Source of the DNA: Kangiellaceae bacterium
Lineage (GTDB): Bacteria > Pseudomonadota > Gammaproteobacteria > Enterobacterales > Kangiellaceae
Direction: 5' to 3'
DNA: 58,788 bases
Assembly (NCBI GenBank): GCA_026196875.1
Contig: JAPHTP010000060.1
Coordinates: 1 to 58,788, forward strand
Shown: positions 393 through 10,954 of the stretch, piece after piece
Layout: each line of letters starts with the position of its first letter
Position numbering within the stretch: position 1 is the stretch's first letter
Notes under the pieces: model-generated
Database searches by the model: none
Told to the model about the DNA's origin: nothing
What the model saw: only the letters and a program-made list of their open reading frames with translations
Position numbers and translations under genes: made by a program

Positions 393-3176
393 CTAAGGGG
401 ATCTTTGTACTTTTGCCGGGTTACTAGCGGTAATCGCCATTCTTATATCCCCGATACAACTACCACAGCCATTTCCCGCACCTGATTTATCGCAAACAAA
501 TGCGAGCTTTTCATTAACGGCGTACTCAGCCGGACACTGTGCAATTGTCTCGTTAATCTTTGCAAAGCCGACAGACGAACACAGACAGAAATCCTTTTCC
601 AAGCCTTCCGGGCTTCTATTAAAGGCATTTACCAGATAGGACTGATTGATCTTGTTCCATGGTTGATCGATTAAATTTAATAACCAGGGCTTAGTAAGTT
701 TCCTCTTGCTTTGTCCAACTTGGAATATCGCGGCGATTTTTTTGTTAGTTACCAATACTGATAATTTTAATGAGCCTTCGTTTCTTAGAGATAGACAAAT
801 ATTAGAAAATACGAGATCGTCCAGCTCCGAATATGTCGTTTTAAGCTGGTCTAAAATCAAACTGGCTAGTTTATCCCCCGTAACGTCGGAAGCTAAATAG
901 TAGAGATTTCTATTTTGATGAATATGTTTGACCCAATAGTCAAAACTAGTAACTTTAATTTTTCGTGAAGTTACCAATTGAGCACTTGTATATTCTTGCA
1001 TTGGCTTAACACTTACCATTGCTTGTTTAAATGCAGGTTGTCCAGACTGATGATCGCATTCATCTCCGACCAAGCTGTTGATGCAGCCCGAACTAAAGTT
1101 TCTACTATTCCAATGCATCGCGGCAAAAACTTCGCCTTTTTTGACTAAATGACTAACTTGAGCACGTATAAGATAGTTTTTCTTAGCTACGCTAAGGCTG
1201 ACTAATGAATCGTCTTTAATTGCACGTAATTTTGCATCCTCTCTAGAAATTAATAATTGTGGTTCCACAGAATGAGCATTTAGTCTAGCCACTAAACCAG
1301 TCCTAGTCATAGTGTGCCACTGATCGCGACTTCTACCTGAATTCAGAACCAAACTGTCAGCCTTCTTCTTGGTAATTTTTGATTTCACAGGAACCATATT
1401 GGCAAGTTTCGAATCGGTATGGAAATTACCGTCTGAAAAAGGTTTAACTTCAGAAAGCTGAAAAGACTTGTCCATTGACTGAGGCCATTGGATATTGGTG
1501 ATATTGTCGTAGAGCTCATCTGAAAGATTTTCCATTTCTCCTAAACTAAAACTGTTAGTAAAACGACTTGATAAGTTTGAAAGTTGAGCGTGTTCATTAA
1601 ATATTTGTCTCGCATTTTCAAAGTTAAAACCATGTTCAAAACCCATTGCTCGAGCAAATTGACAAATTATCCACCAATCGGGCTGACTTTCTGCAAAGCA
1701 AGACTTAAATGCCCTTTGCCTTGAAATCCGGCGCTCTGAGTTGGTAACCATGCCCGACTTTTCACTCCATGGCGAAGCAGGAAAGACTATATCAGCGTAA
1801 TCTAACGTTTCGGAAGTTTTAAAAGATTCACTAACAATAACCGTTGGGCACTTCTGTAACGCCTTTTTAACCTTCTCAGAATTAGGCATCGTCGCTGCTG
1901 GATTTGTAGCCATAATCCAAATCGCTTTGACTTTGCCTTTCAATATTTGATCGAACATATCCACCGCTTTTAAACCAGGCTTGCGAGCGATCTCTTTGCT
2001 TTGCCAGAAGTCCTCAAGCAAGTAAAAGCTCTCGTCGTTAAAATCTAAATGAGCAGCCAACGAGCTGGCCATTGCACCTACCTCTCTTCCCCCCATAGCA
2101 TTGGGCTGCCCTGTTATGGAAAGAGGTCCCATACCAGGCTTACCTATTCTTCCAGTTGCTAAATGACAGTTAATTATCGCGCTGCAGTTATCAACTCCGC
2201 TTGATGACTGATTGACTCCCTGAGAAAAAATGGTCACTACTTTTTCGTTACTCGCAAACCAACTCAAGAACAGGTCTAACTGCGACCTTGAAATTCCAAG
2301 TTCAACTTCAGCATTTGGATAGCAATCCAAGTCCTGCTTCGCCGCCCTATAAGTTTCTTTAAGATTGTTTACTTTCGCTTCTTGACAACCACTGATATTG
2401 TTTTCATAAAGATGAGTAAGCAATAGATTAAAAAGGATAAGATCGGTGCCTGCGTTAATAGCTAAATGTAGATCAGCAATTTCACAACTCGCTGTTTCTC
2501 TCGGGTCAATCACTACAACCTTTAACTTTGGATTTTCCTTTTTGTGTCGCTTGATTCGTTGAAACAGAATTGGGTGACACCATGCCAAATTGGAACCAAC
2601 TAATACAATTAACTCCGCTTTATCGAGATCCGAATAATTTACCGGTACCGTATCTGAGCCAAAAGCTTTTTTATGTGCAACTACTGGAGATGACATACAA
2701 AGCCGGGAGTTGGTATCAATATTGGCACTCCCAAGAAACCCTTTCATCAACTTATTCGCTACATAATAATCCTCAGTGAGTAACTGGCCAGATACATAAA
2801 AGGCTACCGAGTCACTTCCAAATTTATCTATGCAACTTCGAAATTTTGAGGCCGCTAAGTTAATAGCTGTTTGCCAGTTCGTCTGCCTCTGGTTGACTAA
2901 TGGCGCTGTAGTCCGCGTATTTGTATTTAGAGTAGATAATAAGCTTCGCCCTTTGGTACAGAGCAACCCTCGATTCGCGGGGTGGTTTTTATCGCCACTT
3001 AAAGATAGCTTTCCATCAGAAGCCATTGATATAACGACACCGCATCCAACGCCACAATAAGGACAGGTTGTTTTAACTGAACGCTTAGAAGTAGATAACT
3101 CATTCCCCCCAGACTCTTTAAGTTTAAAGTTTGCAATTACTTTATTTTTTTGAAGTGTTAGATTTCTAATTTTCAT
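393..3176 (-). CDS. nasA: Assimilatory nitrate reductase catalytic subunit
   Basis: 927-aa molybdopterin oxidoreductase that reduces nitrate to nitrite in the cytoplasm. An N-terminal [4Fe-4S] domain has CPYCGVGC (C38, C41, C45) and C73. Mo-bis-MGD domains follow, with the likely Mo ligand C160 in RLCMSSPVVAHKK. The C-terminus adds a BFD-like [2Fe-2S] domain (CxC at CLC, then GCGSC), the Klebsiella NasA architecture rather than the shorter cyanobacterial NarB type. About 35 residues precede the first Cys motif, longer than usual. No good Shine-Dalgarno sequence precedes ATG 3176, but no better in-frame start is visible. It is divergent from cobA-nirBD and shares a sigma-54/NtrC control region with it. 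No separate NasC/NasB-type reductase gene is present, so electrons may come from ferredoxin or the NirB/NirD proteins (inference). Confidence 0.93.
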   Translation of the reverse strand: MKIRNLTLQKNKVIANFKLKESGGNELSTSKRSVKTTCPYCGVGCGVVISMASDGKLSLSGDKNHPANRGLLCTKGRSLLSTLNTNTRTTAPLVNQRQTNWQTAINLAASKFRSCIDKFGSDSVAFYVSGQLLTEDYYVANKLMKGFLGSANIDTNSRLCMSSPVVAHKKAFGSDTVPVNYSDLDKAELIVLVGSNLAWCHPILFQRIKRHKKENPKLKVVVIDPRETASCEIADLHLAINAGTDLILFNLLLTHLYENNISGCQEAKVNNLKETYRAAKQDLDCYPNAEVELGISRSQLDLFLSWFASNEKVVTIFSQGVNQSSSGVDNCSAIINCHLATGRIGKPGMGPLSITGQPNAMGGREVGAMASSLAAHLDFNDESFYLLEDFWQSKEIARKPGLKAVDMFDQILKGKVKAIWIMATNPAATMPNSEKVKKALQKCPTVIVSESFKTSETLDYADIVFPASPWSEKSGMVTNSERRISRQRAFKSCFAESQPDWWIICQFARAMGFEHGFNFENARQIFNEHAQLSNLSSRFTNSFSLGEMENLSDELYDNITNIQWPQSMDKSFQLSEVKPFSDGNFHTDSKLANMVPVKSKITKKKADSLVLNSGRSRDQWHTMTRTGLVARLNAHSVEPQLLISREDAKLRAIKDDSLVSLSVAKKNYLIRAQVSHLVKKGEVFAAMHWNSRNFSSGCINSLVGDECDHQSGQPAFKQAMVSVKPMQEYTSAQLVTSRKIKVTSFDYWVKHIHQNRNLYYLASDVTGDKLASLILDQLKTTYSELDDLVFSNICLSLRNEGSLKLSVLVTNKKIAAIFQVGQSKRKLTKPWLLNLIDQPWNKINQSYLVNAFNRSPEGLEKDFCLCSSVGFAKINETIAQCPAEYAVNEKLAFVCDKSGAGNGCGSCIGDIRMAITASNPAKVQRSP

Positions 3177-3234
3177 GGATAAACTAATTATCGCGCTTTC
3201 GCTAATCTATTTTAAATTTTTCTATAGAAAGCTC

Positions 3235-3251
3235 TGCAAACAGCATTCCAA
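3235..3251 (-). promoter_or_regulatory. Sigma-54 (-24/-12) promoter of nasA
   Basis: Minus-strand TTGGAATGCTGTTTGCA has GG at 3249-3248 and GC at 3237-3236, separated by exactly 10 bp as RpoN promoters require. It resembles TTGGCAC-N5-TTGCA, with a weaker -24 block (GGAAT instead of GGCAC). The predicted transcription start is near 3224, about 48 bp upstream of the nasA ATG. The two NtrC-type sites lie about 154 and 194 bp upstream of that start. Confidence 0.72.
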
Positions 3252-3370
3252 TAATTTAGAAAAGTCGATTTTCTATATACAAAAAAAGAAAAAGCCCTCA
3301 GAACAAAGCAAAAACGGCAAGCTGAATTTTGATTAGATTGTTTTCGATAAAAAGCCAACAAAGTTAACCC

Positions 3371-3385
3371 GCACCAGCAAAGTGC
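3371..3385. promoter_or_regulatory. NtrC-type enhancer site 1
   Basis: GCAC-N7-GTGC, extended to CCGCAC/GTGCGG, matches the NtrC (NRI) dyad core GCAC(C)N5(G)GTGC. It is centred at 3378, 40 bp (about four helical turns) from the second site. Paired sites of this kind, 100-200 bp upstream of a -24/-12 promoter, are the standard arrangement for NtrC activation. Confidence 0.7.
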
Positions 3386-3410
3386 GGCTAATTTTCTTAG
3401 CAGGCTGTTC

Positions 3411-3425
3411 GCACTTTGAAAGTGC
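3411..3425. promoter_or_regulatory. NtrC-type enhancer site 2
   Basis: GCAC-TTTGAAA-GTGC is a second exact GCAC-N7-GTGC dyad, centred at 3418. With site 1 it forms a tandem enhancer. The midpoint of the pair (3398) almost coincides with the midpoint (3400) between the two outward-facing sigma-54 promoters, so one enhancer could serve both transcription units. Confidence 0.72.
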
Positions 3426-3548
3426 AAAAAGCTTGGCCGGAAAAAACTCTAAAGATGTATCTTTAAAGGTTTACCTTTACCAATATGGCTCGATAACTAG
3501 TTGAGTTAAAAGCCATTTTTCAACTCATTCCAATTGATTATATTGAGT

Positions 3549-3564
3549 TGGCACCGACTTTGCT
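3549..3564 (+). promoter_or_regulatory. Sigma-54 (-24/-12) promoter of the cobA-nirBD operon
   Basis: TGGCAC-CGACT-TTGCT is a near-perfect RpoN promoter, with GG at 3550-3551, GC at 3562-3563 and the required 10 bp between them. The transcription start is expected near 3575, leaving a leader of about 78 nt before the cobA ATG. The NtrC-type sites lie about 157 and 197 bp upstream of that start. Confidence 0.85.
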
Positions 3565-3652
3565 CTAGCTACAGAGTTCCAACGCAAAACACAATTAATA
3601 AATAAAGCGTGTACAAAAAAGCTAACTAACAGAACGAAGCACGAGCAAGCAA

Positions 3653-4516
3653 ATGAAAAAAAAACTATCAATACAAACAGGATATCCCAAGCCTGAACAG
3701 ACTAATAGCAAACCTGGAAAAGTTTATCTAGTTGGAGCAGGACCTGGCGCTGCAGAACTCCTGACAGTCAAAGCTCTTAAGGTAATAGAGTCATGTGATG
3801 TCATCTTATATGACAACTTAGTCAGCGAAGAAATAAAGTCCTTATTCCCCGCAAATATCTCGAAGCTATTCGTCGGAAAAATGAAGAACTTACATAGTGT
3901 CGCTCAGCAAAATCTGAATCAAATATTAGTTGATTATGCCATGAAAGGATTGAAGGTTTGTCGGCTTAAAGGCGGCGATCCATTTATTTTTGGGCGCGGC
4001 AGTGAGGAAATGCTGACTCTTAAAGAAAACAACATTGACGTCGAAATCGTTCCGGGCATTACCGCTGCTTCGGGTTGTACAAGCTATGCAGGAATTCCAC
4101 TTACCCATCGCGGAATATCCCAAGGTTGCACATTTTTGACAGGACATACCGAAAGAGATCCAGACTTCGACTGGCAAGCTATTGCTAAACTTGACCACAC
4201 GCTAGTGTTTTATATGGGTCTTTCAAAACTTGAATTTATTAGTCGAAATCTAGTCACTCAAGGAATGGATGCAGATACTCCCGTAGCTTTGATAGAAAAC
4301 GGCTCGAGGCCATCTCAAAAAGTCGTATCAACAAAACTAAGTGATTTACTCAACGGCAATTCAAATCACCAACTTAAATCGCCTTGCCTAATTGTCATTG
4401 GCCAAACAACCGAACTTAGAGAACAGTTGCAGTGGTTTGAAGGAGACTCACCAGTCAATAATTTACAGACGGAAAAGCTAGCACCCTATAGCTGGAAAAG
4501 AACGATGTCGGCGTAG
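3653..4516 (+). CDS. cobA: Uroporphyrinogen-III C-methyltransferase (SUMT)
   Basis: 287-aa stand-alone SUMT that methylates uroporphyrinogen III at C2 and C7 with SAM to give precorrin-2, the siroheme precursor. Family motifs are intact: VYLVGAGPGAAELLT (SAM-binding loop), DVILYDNLVS, VCRLKGGDPFIFGRGSEE and the GITAASGC region. About 22 residues precede the conserved core. It is the first gene after the sigma-54 promoter and lies 106 bp before nirB, whose product needs siroheme. It matters more than usual here because the CysG encoded at 11032-12054 has lost its own methyltransferase half. The ribosome-binding site before ATG 3653 is weak. Confidence 0.93.
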   Translation: MKKKLSIQTGYPKPEQTNSKPGKVYLVGAGPGAAELLTVKALKVIESCDVILYDNLVSEEIKSLFPANISKLFVGKMKNLHSVAQQNLNQILVDYAMKGLKVCRLKGGDPFIFGRGSEEMLTLKENNIDVEIVPGITAASGCTSYAGIPLTHRGISQGCTFLTGHTERDPDFDWQAIAKLDHTLVFYMGLSKLEFISRNLVTQGMDADTPVALIENGSRPSQKVVSTKLSDLLNGNSNHQLKSPCLIVIGQTTELREQLQWFEGDSPVNNLQTEKLAPYSWKRTMSA

Positions 4517-4622: not shown

Positions 4623-7172
4623 ATGCAACATTATCAAGTCATAGTTATCGGAAATGGGATGGTAGGACATCGATTTGTCGAGCACATGATTTCAATCAAC
4701 AAGCCAACTGATTCAACTTTTTCAGTCATGGTGTTTTCTGAAGAAAAGCACCTTGCCTACGATCGAGTCCAACTAAGTAGTGTTTTTGCAGACAAGTCAG
4801 AAAAAGAACTAACCTTAACAAGTAAAGATTACTATATTAACAATCAAGTCGATGTCAGCATAAATGAAAAAGTTAACTACATCGATAAGCAAAGTAAAAC
4901 GATTACAACTTCAATTGGTCGAACCTTTTCCTTCGATAAATTGATAATGGCAACCGGCTCCTATCCTTTTGTTCCTCCCATTAAAGGAATACATCAAGAC
5001 CACATCCACGTATATAGAACTTTTGAAGACCTCAGGGATATTAAGTCTTCTGCAGCAGGTGCGAAAACAGGTGTTGTCATTGGCGGGGGCTTGTTAGGCC
5101 TAGAAGCGGCAAATGCACTAAAGCAACTCGGTTTGGAAACACACGTAGTCGAGTTTGCTCCCCAGCTAATGCCGGTACAAGTAGATGAATCAGGCGGACA
5201 AATACTACGAAAAAAAATAGAAGAGATAGGTGTAAAAGTTCACTTGGAAAAAAGTACCAGCCAAATATCCGCAGGAACTGAGTCGAGATTTACACTAAAT
5301 TTTGCAGATCAATCTTACTTAGATACGGATGTCGTCGTATTTTCAGCAGGCATAAGACCACAAGACGAGCTTGCTCGACAGTTTGATTTAGACGTTGGAG
5401 AAAGAGGAGGTATCGTAATCAATGATTTTTGCCAGACGTCCCACCCAGATATTTACGCAATTGGAGAGTGCGCACTTTGGCAAGATAAAGTTTTCGGCCT
5501 TGTAGCGCCGGGTTATCAAATGGCAAAAGTAGCTCAGACTCATCTAGTTGAAGGTAGCGCTAGCGAATTAAAATTTGAAGGTGCTGACATGAGCACCAAA
5601 TTAAAATTATTGGGTGTAGATGTAGCCAGCATTGGGGACGCTCATGGTCAAACGAAAGGTTCATTAAGCTACAGTTTTATTAATGAAGTCGAACAAATAT
5701 ATAAAAAGATAGTTATCTCGGAAGATGCTAGACACCTCCTCGGCGCTGTAATGGTTGGCTGCACTGCTGACTACGGCAACTGGATACAACTTTACTTAAA
5801 TAAAATAGATCTGCCAGAATATCCGGAAAGTCTTCTGGTTCCCTATGCTGAAGACACAGGGAGTACTAGCGGAGGAATAGAAGCACTACCCGAATCCGCC
5901 CAAATTTGTGCGTGTAATGATGTTTCGAAAGGGCAAGTTATTTCTTGCATTAAAAATGGCGCGACAAACTTAGCAGAAGTGAAAAGTCAATCCAATGCGG
6001 CAACTGGTTGCGGAGGATGTGGTCAACTGGTCGGCCAAGTTTTAGATGCTGAATTATTAAAGCTCGGAGTAGAAGTTAACGACCATCTGTGCGAACACTT
6101 CGAGTATAACCGTACTGATTTGTTCGACATTATCCGAGTAAAGCAGATAAAGACTTTTGAACAACTAATTTCTGAGTACGGCAGTGGACATGGCTGCGAT
6201 CTATGCAAACCAGCTGTAGCTTCAATCCTCGCATCTCTGTGGAACGAACCTGTGCTCAATAGAAACCATGTTAGCCTGCAAGATACCAACGATGCATTCC
6301 TTGCCAACATGCAAAAGAATGGAACCTATTCAGTGGTACCCAGAGTCCCGGGTGGGGAAATAACCGCAGACAAGCTAATTGTTATCGGAGAAGTCGCTAA
6401 AGAATTCAATTTATATTGCAAGATTACCGGCGGACAAAGAATAGATTTATTTGGCGCCCAACTCCACGAACTTCCTTTGATTTGGAAAAAACTAATCGAC
6501 GCCGGGTTCGAAACCGGTCACGCCTACGGCAAAGCACTAAGAACTGTAAAATCGTGTGTTGGTAAAACTTGGTGCCGGTTCGGAGTTCAAGATAGTACCA
6601 GTATGGCAATTTTATTGGAGGAAAGGTATCGCGGGATCCGATCGCCGCACAAAATAAAAATGGCCGTATCAGGGTGCGCAAGAGAATGTGCCGAAGCGCA
6701 AAGCAAAGACTTTGGTGTGATTGCATCTGAAAAGGGATGGAATCTATTTGTCGGCGGTAATGGCGGTATGCGCCCAAGACACGCTGACCTTTTTGCAACC
6801 GACCTTAGTGATGAAGAACTAATTCGTTACATCGATAGAATTATGATTTTCTATATCCGAACCGCAGAAAGACTGCAAAGGACCTCAGTATGGCTAGAGT
6901 CGCTGTCAGGCGGACTCGACTATCTGCGTTCAGTAGTAGTCGAAGACAAATTATCGATAGCTGATGACATGGAGAATCAAATGCAACACCTCATTAATAG
7001 TTATAAGTGTGAATGGAAAGACACAATAGAAGATCCACAAAAGTTAAAACGATTTAAACACTTCATTAACAGTGACAAACCAGACCCTCAGGTTATCTTT
7101 GTTGAAGAAAGAAAACAGATTAAACCGGCCCAAGTTGAAGTGGCCGAAGCGAAACTGACTGCGCAAGCTTAA
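4623..7172 (+). CDS. nirB: NAD(P)H nitrite reductase, large subunit
   Basis: 849-aa cytoplasmic siroheme enzyme reducing nitrite to ammonium, normal length for NirB. Residues 1-300 form the FAD/NAD(P)H domain (VIVIGNGMVGHRF; VVIGGGLLGLEAA at about 151-163). A BFD-like [2Fe-2S] domain has C429, C431, C463 and C466. A second Cys-containing stretch follows (C490, C525, C528). The C-terminal nitrite/sulfite reductase half carries the [4Fe-4S]/siroheme ligands C645, C651, C685 and C689 (CVGKTWC and SGCAREC). It is followed after 14 bp by nirD. A likely ribosome-binding site (AGGA) precedes ATG 4623. Confidence 0.97.
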   Translation: MQHYQVIVIGNGMVGHRFVEHMISINKPTDSTFSVMVFSEEKHLAYDRVQLSSVFADKSEKELTLTSKDYYINNQVDVSINEKVNYIDKQSKTITTSIGRTFSFDKLIMATGSYPFVPPIKGIHQDHIHVYRTFEDLRDIKSSAAGAKTGVVIGGGLLGLEAANALKQLGLETHVVEFAPQLMPVQVDESGGQILRKKIEEIGVKVHLEKSTSQISAGTESRFTLNFADQSYLDTDVVVFSAGIRPQDELARQFDLDVGERGGIVINDFCQTSHPDIYAIGECALWQDKVFGLVAPGYQMAKVAQTHLVEGSASELKFEGADMSTKLKLLGVDVASIGDAHGQTKGSLSYSFINEVEQIYKKIVISEDARHLLGAVMVGCTADYGNWIQLYLNKIDLPEYPESLLVPYAEDTGSTSGGIEALPESAQICACNDVSKGQVISCIKNGATNLAEVKSQSNAATGCGGCGQLVGQVLDAELLKLGVEVNDHLCEHFEYNRTDLFDIIRVKQIKTFEQLISEYGSGHGCDLCKPAVASILASLWNEPVLNRNHVSLQDTNDAFLANMQKNGTYSVVPRVPGGEITADKLIVIGEVAKEFNLYCKITGGQRIDLFGAQLHELPLIWKKLIDAGFETGHAYGKALRTVKSCVGKTWCRFGVQDSTSMAILLEERYRGIRSPHKIKMAVSGCARECAEAQSKDFGVIASEKGWNLFVGGNGGMRPRHADLFATDLSDEELIRYIDRIMIFYIRTAERLQRTSVWLESLSGGLDYLRSVVVEDKLSIADDMENQMQHLINSYKCEWKDTIEDPQKLKRFKHFINSDKPDPQVIFVEERKQIKPAQVEVAEAKLTAQA

Positions 7173-7186
7173 ATTAGGAGAAGATA

Positions 7187-7537
7187 ATGAGTATAAGAGA
7201 AACGAATGGTAAAACTTGGGTAGATATATGCGAGCTAAATGACATAGAAATTGATACTGGAGTTTGCGCGGAATTAAATGGAGAGCAGGTAGCAATTTTT
7301 AGAGTTTCACCTGATAACAAGCTTTACTCCATTAGTAATTTCGACCCTCTCGCCAAAGTCAATATGCTTTCGCGAGGGATAATAGGTGAAACAGAAGGGA
7401 AACGCGTGGTTTTTTCGCCACTTTATAAGCACCCTTTCTGTCTTGAAACCGGACAATGCACTCAAGAGGGTTCGGCAAAGGTAAAAGCATATCAAGTTAG
7501 GGCTTATGAAAATCGGGTGCAATTAAGATTAACCTAA
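7187..7537 (+). CDS. nirD: NAD(P)H nitrite reductase, small subunit
   Basis: 116-aa Rieske-fold protein. It follows NirB by 14 bp and has a good Shine-Dalgarno sequence (TTAGGAGAAG). The sequence shows the NirD pattern (WVDICELNDIEIDTG, LNGEQVAIFRV, HPFCLETGQC) but not the CxH/CxxH ligand pairs of a true Rieske [2Fe-2S] protein, as is normal for NirD. It is required with NirB for nitrite reduction. In Paracoccus a related protein passes electrons from NirB-like flavin to the assimilatory nitrate reductase, so the same sharing is possible here (inference). Confidence 0.93.
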   Translation: MSIRETNGKTWVDICELNDIEIDTGVCAELNGEQVAIFRVSPDNKLYSISNFDPLAKVNMLSRGIIGETEGKRVVFSPLYKHPFCLETGQCTQEGSAKVKAYQVRAYENRVQLRLT

Positions 7538-7643
7538 AAAGTAGAATATTAACTCGAACAATAATAACTATGAAACCTTATTTTTTTAAACAAGATGACG
7601 CCGGATCTAAATATATAAAAACTTGATTTCGACGGAGATAAGC

Positions 7644-9110
7644 ATGGCAACCAGTAAATTTGACTTAATGTCATTCAGCGGGAAAATGAAAATCCTACAT
7701 TTAAGTTGGATGGCATTTTTTATTACCTTTGTTGTATGGTTTAATCACGCCCCTTTGATGGGGGCAATAGCGGAGTCTTTAGGGCTAAGCGCAGCAGAGG
7801 TAAAAACGCTTCTAATTCTAAACGTAGCAATAGCTATTCCTGCTAGAGTTCTAGTTGGTATGTTAACCGACCACTTTGGCCCGAAACTTACTTATAGTTT
7901 GTTACTGATAATCTGCAGCATCCCTTGCTTTATGTTCGCACTGGCTGACAATTTTGCCCAAGCGGCCGTAGCAAGATTTTTATTGGGATTTATCGGCGCG
8001 GGTTTTGTTATTGGTATCCGATTGGTAAGTGAATGGTTCCCAGCAAATGAACTAGGTGTTGCCGAAGGCATTTATGGCGGTTGGGGTAATTTTGGTTCAG
8101 CAGCTGCAGCGTTGACACTACCTAGTATCGCATTACTGTTCGGCGGTGAAGACGGCTGGCGTTATGCCATTGCCATTACCGGTGTCCTATGCGTAGTGTT
8201 TAGCATTATTTTCTTTGTAGAAGTGAAAAATACGCCTAAGGGTTCTACCTATTTTAGACCTAAATCAAATGGCGCTATGGAAGTGACTAGCAAAGGCGAC
8301 TTTATTCTACTACTTCTAATGAAAATCCCAATGTACCTGGTGTTAGCTTTACTAGTATGGAAGTTGGCAGAACCTCCAATAAATTTATTAAGCAATAATA
8401 CTGCTGAGTGGATTTATGTCTCACTAATTGTTGTTTATTTATTTGAAACTAGTCAAGTCTATCGAGTCAACAAGAACATATTCATTGAACCGGTTGAAGA
8501 GATCCATCGCTACCAATTTAAACAAGTCGCGATCTTAAATGTGCTCTATTTTGCAACATTTGGTTCCGAGCTTGCAGTTGTCTCGATGTTACCGCTATTT
8601 TTTTCTGAAACCTTTGACCTGAGTATGGTTACGGCAGGTATTCTTGCATCGACTTATGCCTTTATGAACTTAGCTTCCAGGCCTGGGGGTGGTTGGATAA
8701 GTGACAAGTTTGGCCGTAAAAAGAGCTTGCTTATTCTTACCGCCGGGTTAGCCATAGGGTATTTCTGTATGGCATTTATCAATAGTAACTGGCCCCTCGC
8801 TTTAGCGGTACTAGTAGCGATGTCTTGCAGTTTCTTTGTGCAGGCTGGCGAGGGTGCGGTATTCGCTACCGTGCCTTTGATCAAACGACGATTAACTGGA
8901 CAAATAGCAGGAATGACAGGGGCTTACGGAAATGTCGGCGCTGTATGCTATCTAACAGTTCTTTCTTTCGTTAGTTATCAGTGGTTCTTTCTAATCATTG
9001 CATCGACTGCGGCACTAAGTCTAATTTGCCTGGCCTTCATGCATGAGCCGAAAGGTAACATTGCTGAGGTTAATGAAGACGGTACTATTGAGCTCATCGG
9101 TGTCGGCTAA
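7644..9110 (+). CDS. NarK/NasA-family nitrate/nitrite MFS transporter
   Basis: 488-aa inner-membrane major facilitator protein with about 12 hydrophobic segments. Motifs include GMLTDHFGPK after TM2, the Arg-containing TM segment GFVIGIRLVSEWFP expected to contact nitrate, the Gly-rich stretch IYGGWGNFGSAAA, and a second signature GMTGAYGNVGAVCYLTV. I chose ATG 7644 over an upstream in-frame TTG (7623) because GGAG at 7634-7637 sits six bases before the ATG. Its place after nirBD points to nitrate uptake, possibly with nitrite exchange, for assimilation. Confidence 0.9.
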   Translation: MATSKFDLMSFSGKMKILHLSWMAFFITFVVWFNHAPLMGAIAESLGLSAAEVKTLLILNVAIAIPARVLVGMLTDHFGPKLTYSLLLIICSIPCFMFALADNFAQAAVARFLLGFIGAGFVIGIRLVSEWFPANELGVAEGIYGGWGNFGSAAAALTLPSIALLFGGEDGWRYAIAITGVLCVVFSIIFFVEVKNTPKGSTYFRPKSNGAMEVTSKGDFILLLLMKIPMYLVLALLVWKLAEPPINLLSNNTAEWIYVSLIVVYLFETSQVYRVNKNIFIEPVEEIHRYQFKQVAILNVLYFATFGSELAVVSMLPLFFSETFDLSMVTAGILASTYAFMNLASRPGGGWISDKFGRKKSLLILTAGLAIGYFCMAFINSNWPLALAVLVAMSCSFFVQAGEGAVFATVPLIKRRLTGQIAGMTGAYGNVGAVCYLTVLSFVSYQWFFLIIASTAALSLICLAFMHEPKGNIAEVNEDGTIELIGVG

Positions 9111-9133: not shown

Positions 9134-10954
9134 ATGGCTTACTCCACTTCCACAACAGAATATATTTCGATAAATCGCTCGCAATCCAAAACCAAGCTGA
9201 CGATCGAAATGCAGAGTTTGTGTGGAGTAAAACCATCAAATGATGATTGTTTTCTGGCTGCAAAGCCAATGGCTGCTCAATCATCTATAAAAGGTCAATT
9301 GTTTGCGGTAGCTGATGGTGTGTCTCATGCAAACAGAGCAGCCGAAGCCAGTTGGTATTGTCTAAACGAACTTAGAAAAAGCTACTTTTCAAGTGCAACA
9401 TCCTGGTCCACTCAAAGGGCAATTTCGCAGTCGCTGCAAATGATAAACTCACAACTTTACTCTCGAACAGACAGGCATGGAACGAATATAAAATTTGGCG
9501 AACAAAACTTCGAAAGAACGAGTTCAAACGAAAAAGAACAATGGTTGTCTACATTAAGTTGTGCAGTATTAAAGGGAAAAAAAGCACATATTTTTCATGT
9601 AGGTGATAGTCAAGTTGGCGTTGTCAGAGATGGTCATTTTAAGCGACTGACCAAACCACACAATAGCCACTTGGGTGGGCATTCAAAAGTACTCACAAGA
9701 GCAATGGGTGCAGACTCTCACCTTCAAGTCGACTATTCAACCTTTCCGATTCAACCAGGTGATATTCTTATATTTTCAACTGATGGCGTGCATGAGTTTG
9801 TAAGTGAGCCGGAAATAATAGAAGCTGTTTCTTCAGAAGCAGATTTAAACCAGGCGGTTCAACGTATTACTCAGATCGCTACAGCAAATCACAGTGACGA
9901 TAACCTGACCTGTTTGCTCGTAAGAATTGATTCCTTAGCCCAATCGGAAGAGTTCGAGTTTGAAAAGCTCTTGGCTTCTAAAAAGATACCACGCGCATTA
10001 TCATCTGGTAGTATTATTGATGACTTTAAAATAATCGAAGTTCTTCACGAAACACCTCGTTCTCACCTTTATTTGGCTGTCGACAAAGATAACGATCAAA
10101 CTCAACCCACCCAAAAGTATGCGGTCAAAATTCCATCCATCAATTTTGAAGATGACAAGGAGTATTTACAGCGATTTATACGTGAATCGTGGGTATCACA
10201 ATTGATTGCTTCTCCTCAAGTATTAAAGGTTTTGCCATTAAATCAGAACTCTCCTTTCCTTTACCAAGTCTATGAATACGTCGAAGGACAAACGCTAAGG
10301 CAATGGATAGATGATAACCCCAATCCAAATATTAATAGTGTTAGAAAAATAGTCGATAAAATCTCAAAAGCGCTACGCCTTTTTAAAAGATTGGACATAG
10401 TTCACGGAGACATCAAGCCAGACAACATTATGTTGGATGAAAGTAATGAAGATATCAAAATCATTGATTTCGGTGATGTCTCAATTGCATCACTTGATGA
10501 ATTAATCAATGATGATTCTGCACCTACGGCTGCAGGTACGATTAACTATCTTGCTCCTGAAGTGATTCACACTTTTCGCTCCTCTCATCAAAGTGATCTC
10601 TTTAGTTTAGGCGTTGTAGCCTATGAAATGCTGACGGGTAGCTTGCCTTACCCTGACTTGTCAGATATGAACAAGCATAGAGTTAAAAATGTTAAACTTC
10701 ATTATCAGAGCGCAAAGGATAAAAGGCAATCGCTGCCTTTTTGGATCGATCTTGCATTGAAGAAAGCAACAGAACCGGATCCTGGCCTTCGATACGATAC
10801 CTATTCTGAATTTGTCACCGACTTAAGTAGACCTCACAGTCAGATTGAAGAAATTTATTTTTCCCGGCCATTAATAGAAAGAGACCCAGTGAAATTCTGG
10901 AGAACTACCAGCGCTGTATTAGCGCTTTTATTGGTGTTCACAATATTACTTTAG
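9134..10954 (+). CDS. Bifunctional PP2C phosphatase / Ser-Thr protein kinase, membrane-anchored
   Basis: 606-aa fusion. Residues 25-265 are a PP2C-type phosphatase with metal-site motifs VADGVS (D61), FHVGDSQVG, STDGVHE (D217) and SDDN (D255/D256). Residues 298-560 are a Hanks-type kinase: Lys in YAVKIPS (K332), HGDIKPDN with D426 (HGD instead of HRD), DFG at 445-447 and APE at 474-476. The last ~18 residues (AVLALLLVFTILL) form a C-terminal membrane anchor, leaving both enzyme domains cytoplasmic. It starts 24 bp after the transporter gene and probably shares its transcript. Similar fusions recur beside narK/nirB genes in other proteobacteria. Substrate and signal are not known to me; regulation of nitrate uptake or reduction is an inference. 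Confidence 0.88.
   Translation: MAYSTSTTEYISINRSQSKTKLTIEMQSLCGVKPSNDDCFLAAKPMAAQSSIKGQLFAVADGVSHANRAAEASWYCLNELRKSYFSSATSWSTQRAISQSLQMINSQLYSRTDRHGTNIKFGEQNFERTSSNEKEQWLSTLSCAVLKGKKAHIFHVGDSQVGVVRDGHFKRLTKPHNSHLGGHSKVLTRAMGADSHLQVDYSTFPIQPGDILIFSTDGVHEFVSEPEIIEAVSSEADLNQAVQRITQIATANHSDDNLTCLLVRIDSLAQSEEFEFEKLLASKKIPRALSSGSIIDDFKIIEVLHETPRSHLYLAVDKDNDQTQPTQKYAVKIPSINFEDDKEYLQRFIRESWVSQLIASPQVLKVLPLNQNSPFLYQVYEYVEGQTLRQWIDDNPNPNINSVRKIVDKISKALRLFKRLDIVHGDIKPDNIMLDESNEDIKIIDFGDVSIASLDELINDDSAPTAAGTINYLAPEVIHTFRSSHQSDLFSLGVVAYEMLTGSLPYPDLSDMNKHRVKNVKLHYQSAKDKRQSLPFWIDLALKKATEPDPGLRYDTYSEFVTDLSRPHSQIEEIYFSRPLIERDPVKFWRTTSAVLALLLVFTILL

Follow-up and report, generated by a model that had tools for sequence, protein, structure and literature searches.

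A putative bidirectional NtrC/sigma-54 control region between nasA and cobA-nirBD in a Kangiellaceae bacterium and its relatives

Can one stretch of intergenic DNA switch on nitrate reductase and nitrite reductase together? Nitrite is toxic, so matching the one enzyme to the other matters, and the question is raised by a locus in a 58,788-nucleotide stretch of a Kangiellaceae genome (contig JAPHTP010000060.1; hereafter the window, that is, the whole stretch analysed), in which nasA and a cobA-nirB-nirD cluster are encoded back to back. The initial annotation described the gap between them as a symmetric control region, with one NtrC enhancer equidistant from two outward sigma-54 promoters. We arrive at a related reading, to which we give a probability of roughly 85%: the gap would be a bidirectional NtrC/sigma-54 control region whose near-central enhancer switches on both operons when nitrogen is short.

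The gene at 393..3176 on the minus strand encodes a molybdopterin oxidoreductase of 927 aa, designated here nasA for assimilatory nitrate reductase; both of its profile scores, 380 bits for the NCBIfam NasC model NF047855 and 437 bits for Fdh-alpha, are under the cut-off, and the name was given from the open reading frame, its context and its synteny with cobA-nirBD-narK. A search of genome contigs with NasA as the query returned one distant relative, with 27% identity. On the plus strand, cobA (3653..4516; TIGR01469, 299.7 bits, cut-off 185) encodes the uroporphyrinogen-III C-methyltransferase that serves siroheme supply for nitrite reductase, followed by the large and small nitrite reductase subunit genes nirB (4623..7172; TIGR02374, 1086 bits, cut-off 578) and nirD (7187..7537; TIGR02378, 110.6 bits, cut-off 74.65) and by a narK-type nitrate/nitrite transporter gene (7623..9110; TIGR00886, 337.5 bits, cut-off 311.7), and the order cobA-nirB-nirD-narK is kept in relatives. 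A PP2C-phosphatase/Ser-Thr-kinase fusion, whose scores fall below equivalog cut-offs, is encoded next on the same strand (9134..10954) and is probably the last gene of the cobA operon; such a fusion also ends the nitrite-reduction cluster in five other loci (L056, L057, L058, L061 and L145). Further along, a second siroheme gene at 11032-12054 matches the N-terminal part of CysG but just a portion of the methyltransferase half, covering model positions 1-300 of 450, so its C-terminal domain may be decayed.

The gap extends from 3177 to 3652 (476 bp), between the nasA ATG at 3176 on the minus strand and the cobA ATG at 3653 on the plus strand. Scanning both of its strands yields exactly two GG-N10-GC elements, each pointing outward: the candidate -24/-12 element of nasA on the minus strand at 3236..3250, which reads TGGAATGCTGTTTGC (GG at 3249-3248, GC at 3237-3236; predicted start around 3224), and that of the cobA operon on the plus strand at 3549..3563, which reads TGGCACCGACTTTGC (predicted start around 3575). 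Between them lie two exact GCAC-N7-GTGC dyads, candidate NtrC-type operators, at 3371..3385 (centre 3378; GCACCAGCAAAGTGC) and 3411..3425 (centre 3418; GCACTTTGAAAGTGC), set 40 bp or about four helical turns apart. All positions assigned to promoters and dyads in the initial annotation were recovered on re-scanning, as were the nearly coincident midpoints, 3398 for the enhancer and about 3399.5 for the promoters; the distances of about 155 and 195 bp that it gave from dyads to transcription starts hold if each start, a predicted position, lies 12 nt past the GC. The cobA-side element is the sole zero-mismatch match to TGGCAC-N5-TTGC in the whole window. The nasA-side element has two mismatches, and at that tolerance matches are no commoner across the window than chance predicts (36 vs 45.8 expected), so that the nasA site alone proves little. 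The pattern TGGNNYNNNNNTTGC, picked post hoc so as to fit both sigma-54 sites, occurs 553 times on the two strands of the genome (215 for the control), and by our own arithmetic the probability of one copy in each direction within one given gap is roughly 4e-4.

NtrB phosphorylates NtrC under nitrogen limitation. In the proposed mechanism, phosphorylated NtrC would assemble into oligomers over both dyads (3371-3425) and, with the DNA looping to one side or the other, would activate RNA polymerase-sigma-54 at 3236-3250 and at 3549-3563, the left output being nasA and the right output cobA-nirB-nirD-narK and the PP2C/kinase gene. Nitrogen shortage would thereby induce transport, siroheme supply and the reduction of both nitrate and nitrite at the same time. 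While the NtrC/sigma-54 reading of the gap appears well supported by the comparisons described below, binding, looping, a common enhancer and co-expression are steps that we infer from them. The fixed ratio of nitrate to nitrite reduction once proposed for this arrangement is not supported, because the two promoters differ in sequence and nothing in the DNA points to such a ratio.

Relatives were collected by searching with CobA, which gave a match at E 0.001 in 44 of 61 genomes and at 1e-78 in 43 of 394 genomes of the order (both counts include the genome studied here); a class-wide search at 1e-82 matched the own genome alone (1 of 377), a cut-off too strict to gauge breadth. From these, 49 loci were taken up (the window, 10 and 38), 29 of which have a divergent nasA and were scored, one per genome. 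The 29 belong to eight genera and six families, but 11 come from one genus and seven from another, so they are not independent. Nine of the other 20, from two genera of one family, served as a contrast group, and 11 were left out of the counts (L059, L063, L064, L065, L116 and L123-L128). Site scores used hand-set weights based on consensus sequences, with thresholds picked after the data had been seen. On this scale, outward sigma-54 sites scoring at least 10.9 are present on both sides in 28 of the 29 divergent loci, the window included, the exception being L121, which has no nasA-side site. Sites of that score point outward 57 times and inward twice across the 29 loci, the midpoint that separates the two classes being derived from the best sites themselves. 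Among 5,800 draws of first-order Markov surrogates, 1.4% reached at least 10.9 on both strands and 0.02% reached 13.4.

Dyads are nearly as regular. A dyad scoring at least 13 lies between the promoters in 25 of the 28 two-promoter loci, once in 17 and twice in eight, and the remaining three (L091, L092 and L100) have weak dyads with scores of 9.6-11.4; the best dyad scores at least 15 in 21 of the 29 divergent loci vs 0.7% of surrogates. The initial annotation had proposed a check of related genomes for conservation of both GG-N10-GC elements and both dyads, and what recurs there is the pair of promoter elements, together with one dyad more often than two. In L058 and eleven f2 loci (L061, L104, L105, L108, L110, L111, L113, L114, L115, L117 and L120), the divergent nasA is just 30-32% identical to that of the window. 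The two-promoter layout is retained in these twelve despite the distant homologue, as if nasA had been swapped behind a control region that, to judge from its sites, was conserved.

How far the symmetry itself is conserved was assessed from distances. In the window, 135-178 bp separate the dyads from the centres of the two promoter elements. Across the divergent loci, the promoters are 270-414 bp apart, and the distance from dyad to promoter element ranges from 102 to 301 bp on the nasA side and from 98 to 192 bp on the cobA side. Taking the median per genus, the enhancer midpoint is less than 20 bp off centre in seven of eight genera, and a central placement is favoured over a uniform one (combined Fisher p 3e-4, with 30 bp excluded at each end). 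Such near-central placement is expected if one enhancer has to reach both promoters by loops of a workable length, mostly 110-180 bp. Exact symmetry was considered as a conserved property and rejected, since absolute offsets range from 0.5 to 73.5 bp; the largest belongs to the congener L056, which indicates that the window's 2-bp agreement is not conserved, and the exact balance is taken as coincidence. Equidistance, as first put forward, thus survives in an approximate form that recurs in seven of eight genera, without the 2-bp precision.

Whether two promoters use one enhancer or two is the point at which an alternative has to be weighed most carefully. The gap could consist of two back-to-back NtrC half-modules, each dyad mainly serving one promoter, with no enhancer in common. 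Two dyads are indeed present in the window and in its congeners L056 and L057, and in the nine cobA-nirB-nirD loci of one family without an adjoining nasA a single exact dyad goes with the cobA promoter. The same nine also act as a natural control that favours the bidirectional reading: all of them retain the sigma-54 site of cobA together with an exact dyad, whereas a site of at least 13 on the opposite side is found in none of them vs 25 of the 29 loci with a divergent nasA. A weak opposite-side site (at least 10.9) is present in seven of the nine, in L103 within the divergent gene, and the divergent gene was identified in two of the nine, encoding a sigma-70-family factor in both. The sequence alone is equally compatible with one dyad per promoter. 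Against half-modules, 17 of the 25 loci with a dyad of at least 13 have just one and yet keep two promoters, which suggests one enhancer acting on both. Moreover, paired dyads are spaced close to whole helical turns, at 40 bp in the window, 41 bp in L056 and 42 bp in L057, 33 bp in four g7 loci, 20 bp in L119 and 21 bp in the weaker pair of L122. We therefore consider half-modules unlikely and the use of one enhancer by both promoters likely. Two loci outside the counts add variants: L063, truncated by a contig edge, shows a site on the cobA side plus two exact dyads 41 bp apart, and in L116, where nasA stands upstream in the same orientation, the cobA site is retained but an exact dyad is absent.

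That the dyads are operators of NtrC, and not of some other protein, is suggested by where else they occur. The window holds three exact GCAC-N7-GTGC dyads vs 0.46 expected, a number reached in none of 100 shuffles, and the genome of 6,276,235 bp (188 contigs) holds 28, vs eight for the reversed-pattern control. Among all 28, two dyads occur near each other in the nas gap only, and two within one given 476-bp gap would, by our own arithmetic, be about a 2e-6 event. Nine, counting those at glnA and ntrB, are intergenic outside the nas gap and 17 lie within frames of at least 70 aa; both nas dyads were flagged as genic by the script, solely through a 71-aa frame regarded as spurious. The gap upstream of glnA (L022) contains the same exact dyad and, 122 bp away, a sigma-54 site free of mismatches, and one exact dyad lies directly upstream of ntrB (L131), beside which no sigma-54 site was found even with up to three mismatches; both genes were identified by NCBIfam. 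The same dyad at glnA, with its sigma-54 site, and at ntrB makes it probably the NtrC operator of this genome. Four of the 28 dyads (two nas, glnA and ntrB) were found at nitrogen genes, with other neighbours identified in part, and those named beside the other intergenic dyads are not clearly nitrogen genes. Judged by the company it keeps, the GCAC-N7-GTGC dyad is most likely the sequence that NtrC recognises in this organism, though the bare motif occurs elsewhere too. Dyad 1 had also been flagged as a terminator on both strands (two sites, 0.4 expected); it was not accepted as one, because neither predicted transcript includes it and its core is the one found in the dyads at glnA and ntrB.

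Both regulators have genes here: RpoN is encoded once (501.6 bits), and a single protein exceeds the NtrC family cut-off (663.8 bits). A different enhancer-binding protein or a repressor might nevertheless bind the dyads: a further 12 proteins match the NtrC model at 270 bits or more, all under the cut-off, and both dyads of the gap depart from the NtrC site consensus, TGCACC-N5-GGTGCA, in that the outer T/A is missing from at least one side. Yet the identical core stands at glnA and ntrB in the same genome, the function in nitrogen assimilation fits NtrC, and some sites of relatives conform to the consensus more fully than the window dyads do, e.g., TGCACCACGCCAGTGCA in L056; another binder is thus improbable. 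That common short GG-N10-GC elements and palindromes have fallen into a symmetric layout by chance is hardly credible, for although the 2-bp symmetry is not conserved, the nasA site belongs to an unenriched two-mismatch class and TGGNNYNNNNNTTGC is abundant, the layout recurs in 28 of 29 divergent loci with an overwhelmingly outward orientation, and the dyad is rare genome-wide. The NtrC/sigma-54 architecture set out in the initial annotation accordingly stands in its outline, as sites kept across genera and families, the dyad at glnA and ntrB, and the presence of both RpoN and NtrC are all consistent with it.

Control of nitrate assimilation by NtrC is familiar, as is the nasFEDCBA operon of Klebsiella, which is regulated by NtrC and NasR. 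In Pseudomonas stutzeri A1501, an ntrC mutant lost nitrate use and a putative NtrC site lies upstream of nasB (PMC8443478). The window resembles these systems in having nitrate/nitrite assimilation genes with NtrC-type sites, but differs in having two divergent operons on one gap, with neither an ANTAR protein nor a leader terminator found. In the regulon reconstruction of Leyn et al. 2016, the core targets of NtrC include glnA and ntrBC, both of which are dyad-bearing here too, and the regulon is said to have expanded to nas and narK genes in alpha- and betaproteobacteria (PMC5343134), whereas the window genome belongs to the Gammaproteobacteria.

Divergent sigma-54 promoters have precedents as well. 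Divergent NtrA-dependent promoters were reportedly described by Lutz et al. in 1990, and in the hyc/hyp and zra systems the enhancer itself is common to both promoters. In enteric bacteria, a single activator governs divergent sigma-54 promoters that lie in one gap, FhlA for hycA/hypA and ZraR for zraP/zraSR (PMC3844500, PMC8743547). These share with the window two outward sigma-54 promoters in one gap, but their activator, signal and pathway differ from those proposed here, and the hycA and hypA sites listed for Salmonella are about 114 bp apart (PMC3844500), vs 270-414 bp from promoter to promoter in the divergent nas loci. No description of the divergent nas layout was found in the largely open-access literature consulted, including the available parts of PMC5343134, PMC3844500, PMC8443478, PMC8743547 and PMC1274295. 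This type of mechanism is already known, and the layout is, as its sites indicate, a conserved variant of known NtrC control.

A second layer of control, antitermination, was sought by looking for ANTAR proteins (PF03861) and leader terminators. PF03861 has no match in the own genome and was found in four of 61 genomes, including the congener G004; among the 29 genomes with a divergent locus, 27 have none, and G265 and G256 have one each. Neither predicted leader contains a terminator-like site, and both fold about like shuffles (z -0.86 for nasA and 0.89 for cobA). In G004 (L144, 6220-19720), by comparison, nirB, nirD, nasA and cobA lie on one strand with an adjoining ANTAR protein, forming a NasR-type operon whose leader has a 7-bp stem and, after it, a U run (z -2.70). 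This operon and the window locus have the same four genes, and an exact GCAC-N7-GTGC dyad and a sigma-54-like TGGCATAATCTTTGT stand upstream of it too, but it differs in its single strand, ANTAR protein and leader hairpin. It appears that one genus has two designs for the same pathway. It is tempting to go further and speculate that the divergent gap is a nitrate-blind module in several families, in which a central NtrC enhancer replaces nitrate-sensing antitermination and drives nasA and cobA-nirBD in parallel, near-equidistance being selected so that nitrite production and removal match; we regard this as possible but doubtful.

A single enhancer for two promoters would be a simple way to match nitrate reductase and nitrite reductase, and nitrate assimilation in these bacteria may follow nitrogen status without NasR/NasT. 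The natural variants, with one dyad or two, an off-centre enhancer or no nasA, offer material on how distance and phasing set two outputs.

Sigma-70 promoter-like matches number three vs 1.2 expected, and the window has no match to a known RNA element in Rfam. At 3465-3478, past the enhancer but short of the cobA promoter, there is an inverted repeat, AAAGGT-TT-ACCTTT, that matches no recognised known site. For the IHF motif, the window has one match with one mismatch, exact matches occur in two of the 29 divergent loci (L099 and L122), and a one-mismatch site is recurrent in genus g7. A Nar-type 7-2-7 palindrome has no exact copy in the window and is exact in three of the 29 divergent loci, all of one genus (L097, L098 and L099), where TACCYATTTAGAGGTA lies at about 157-173 of the gap, between the nasA promoter and the enhancer; L103 has a version of it with one mismatch, and the palindrome resembles a NarL/NarP site.
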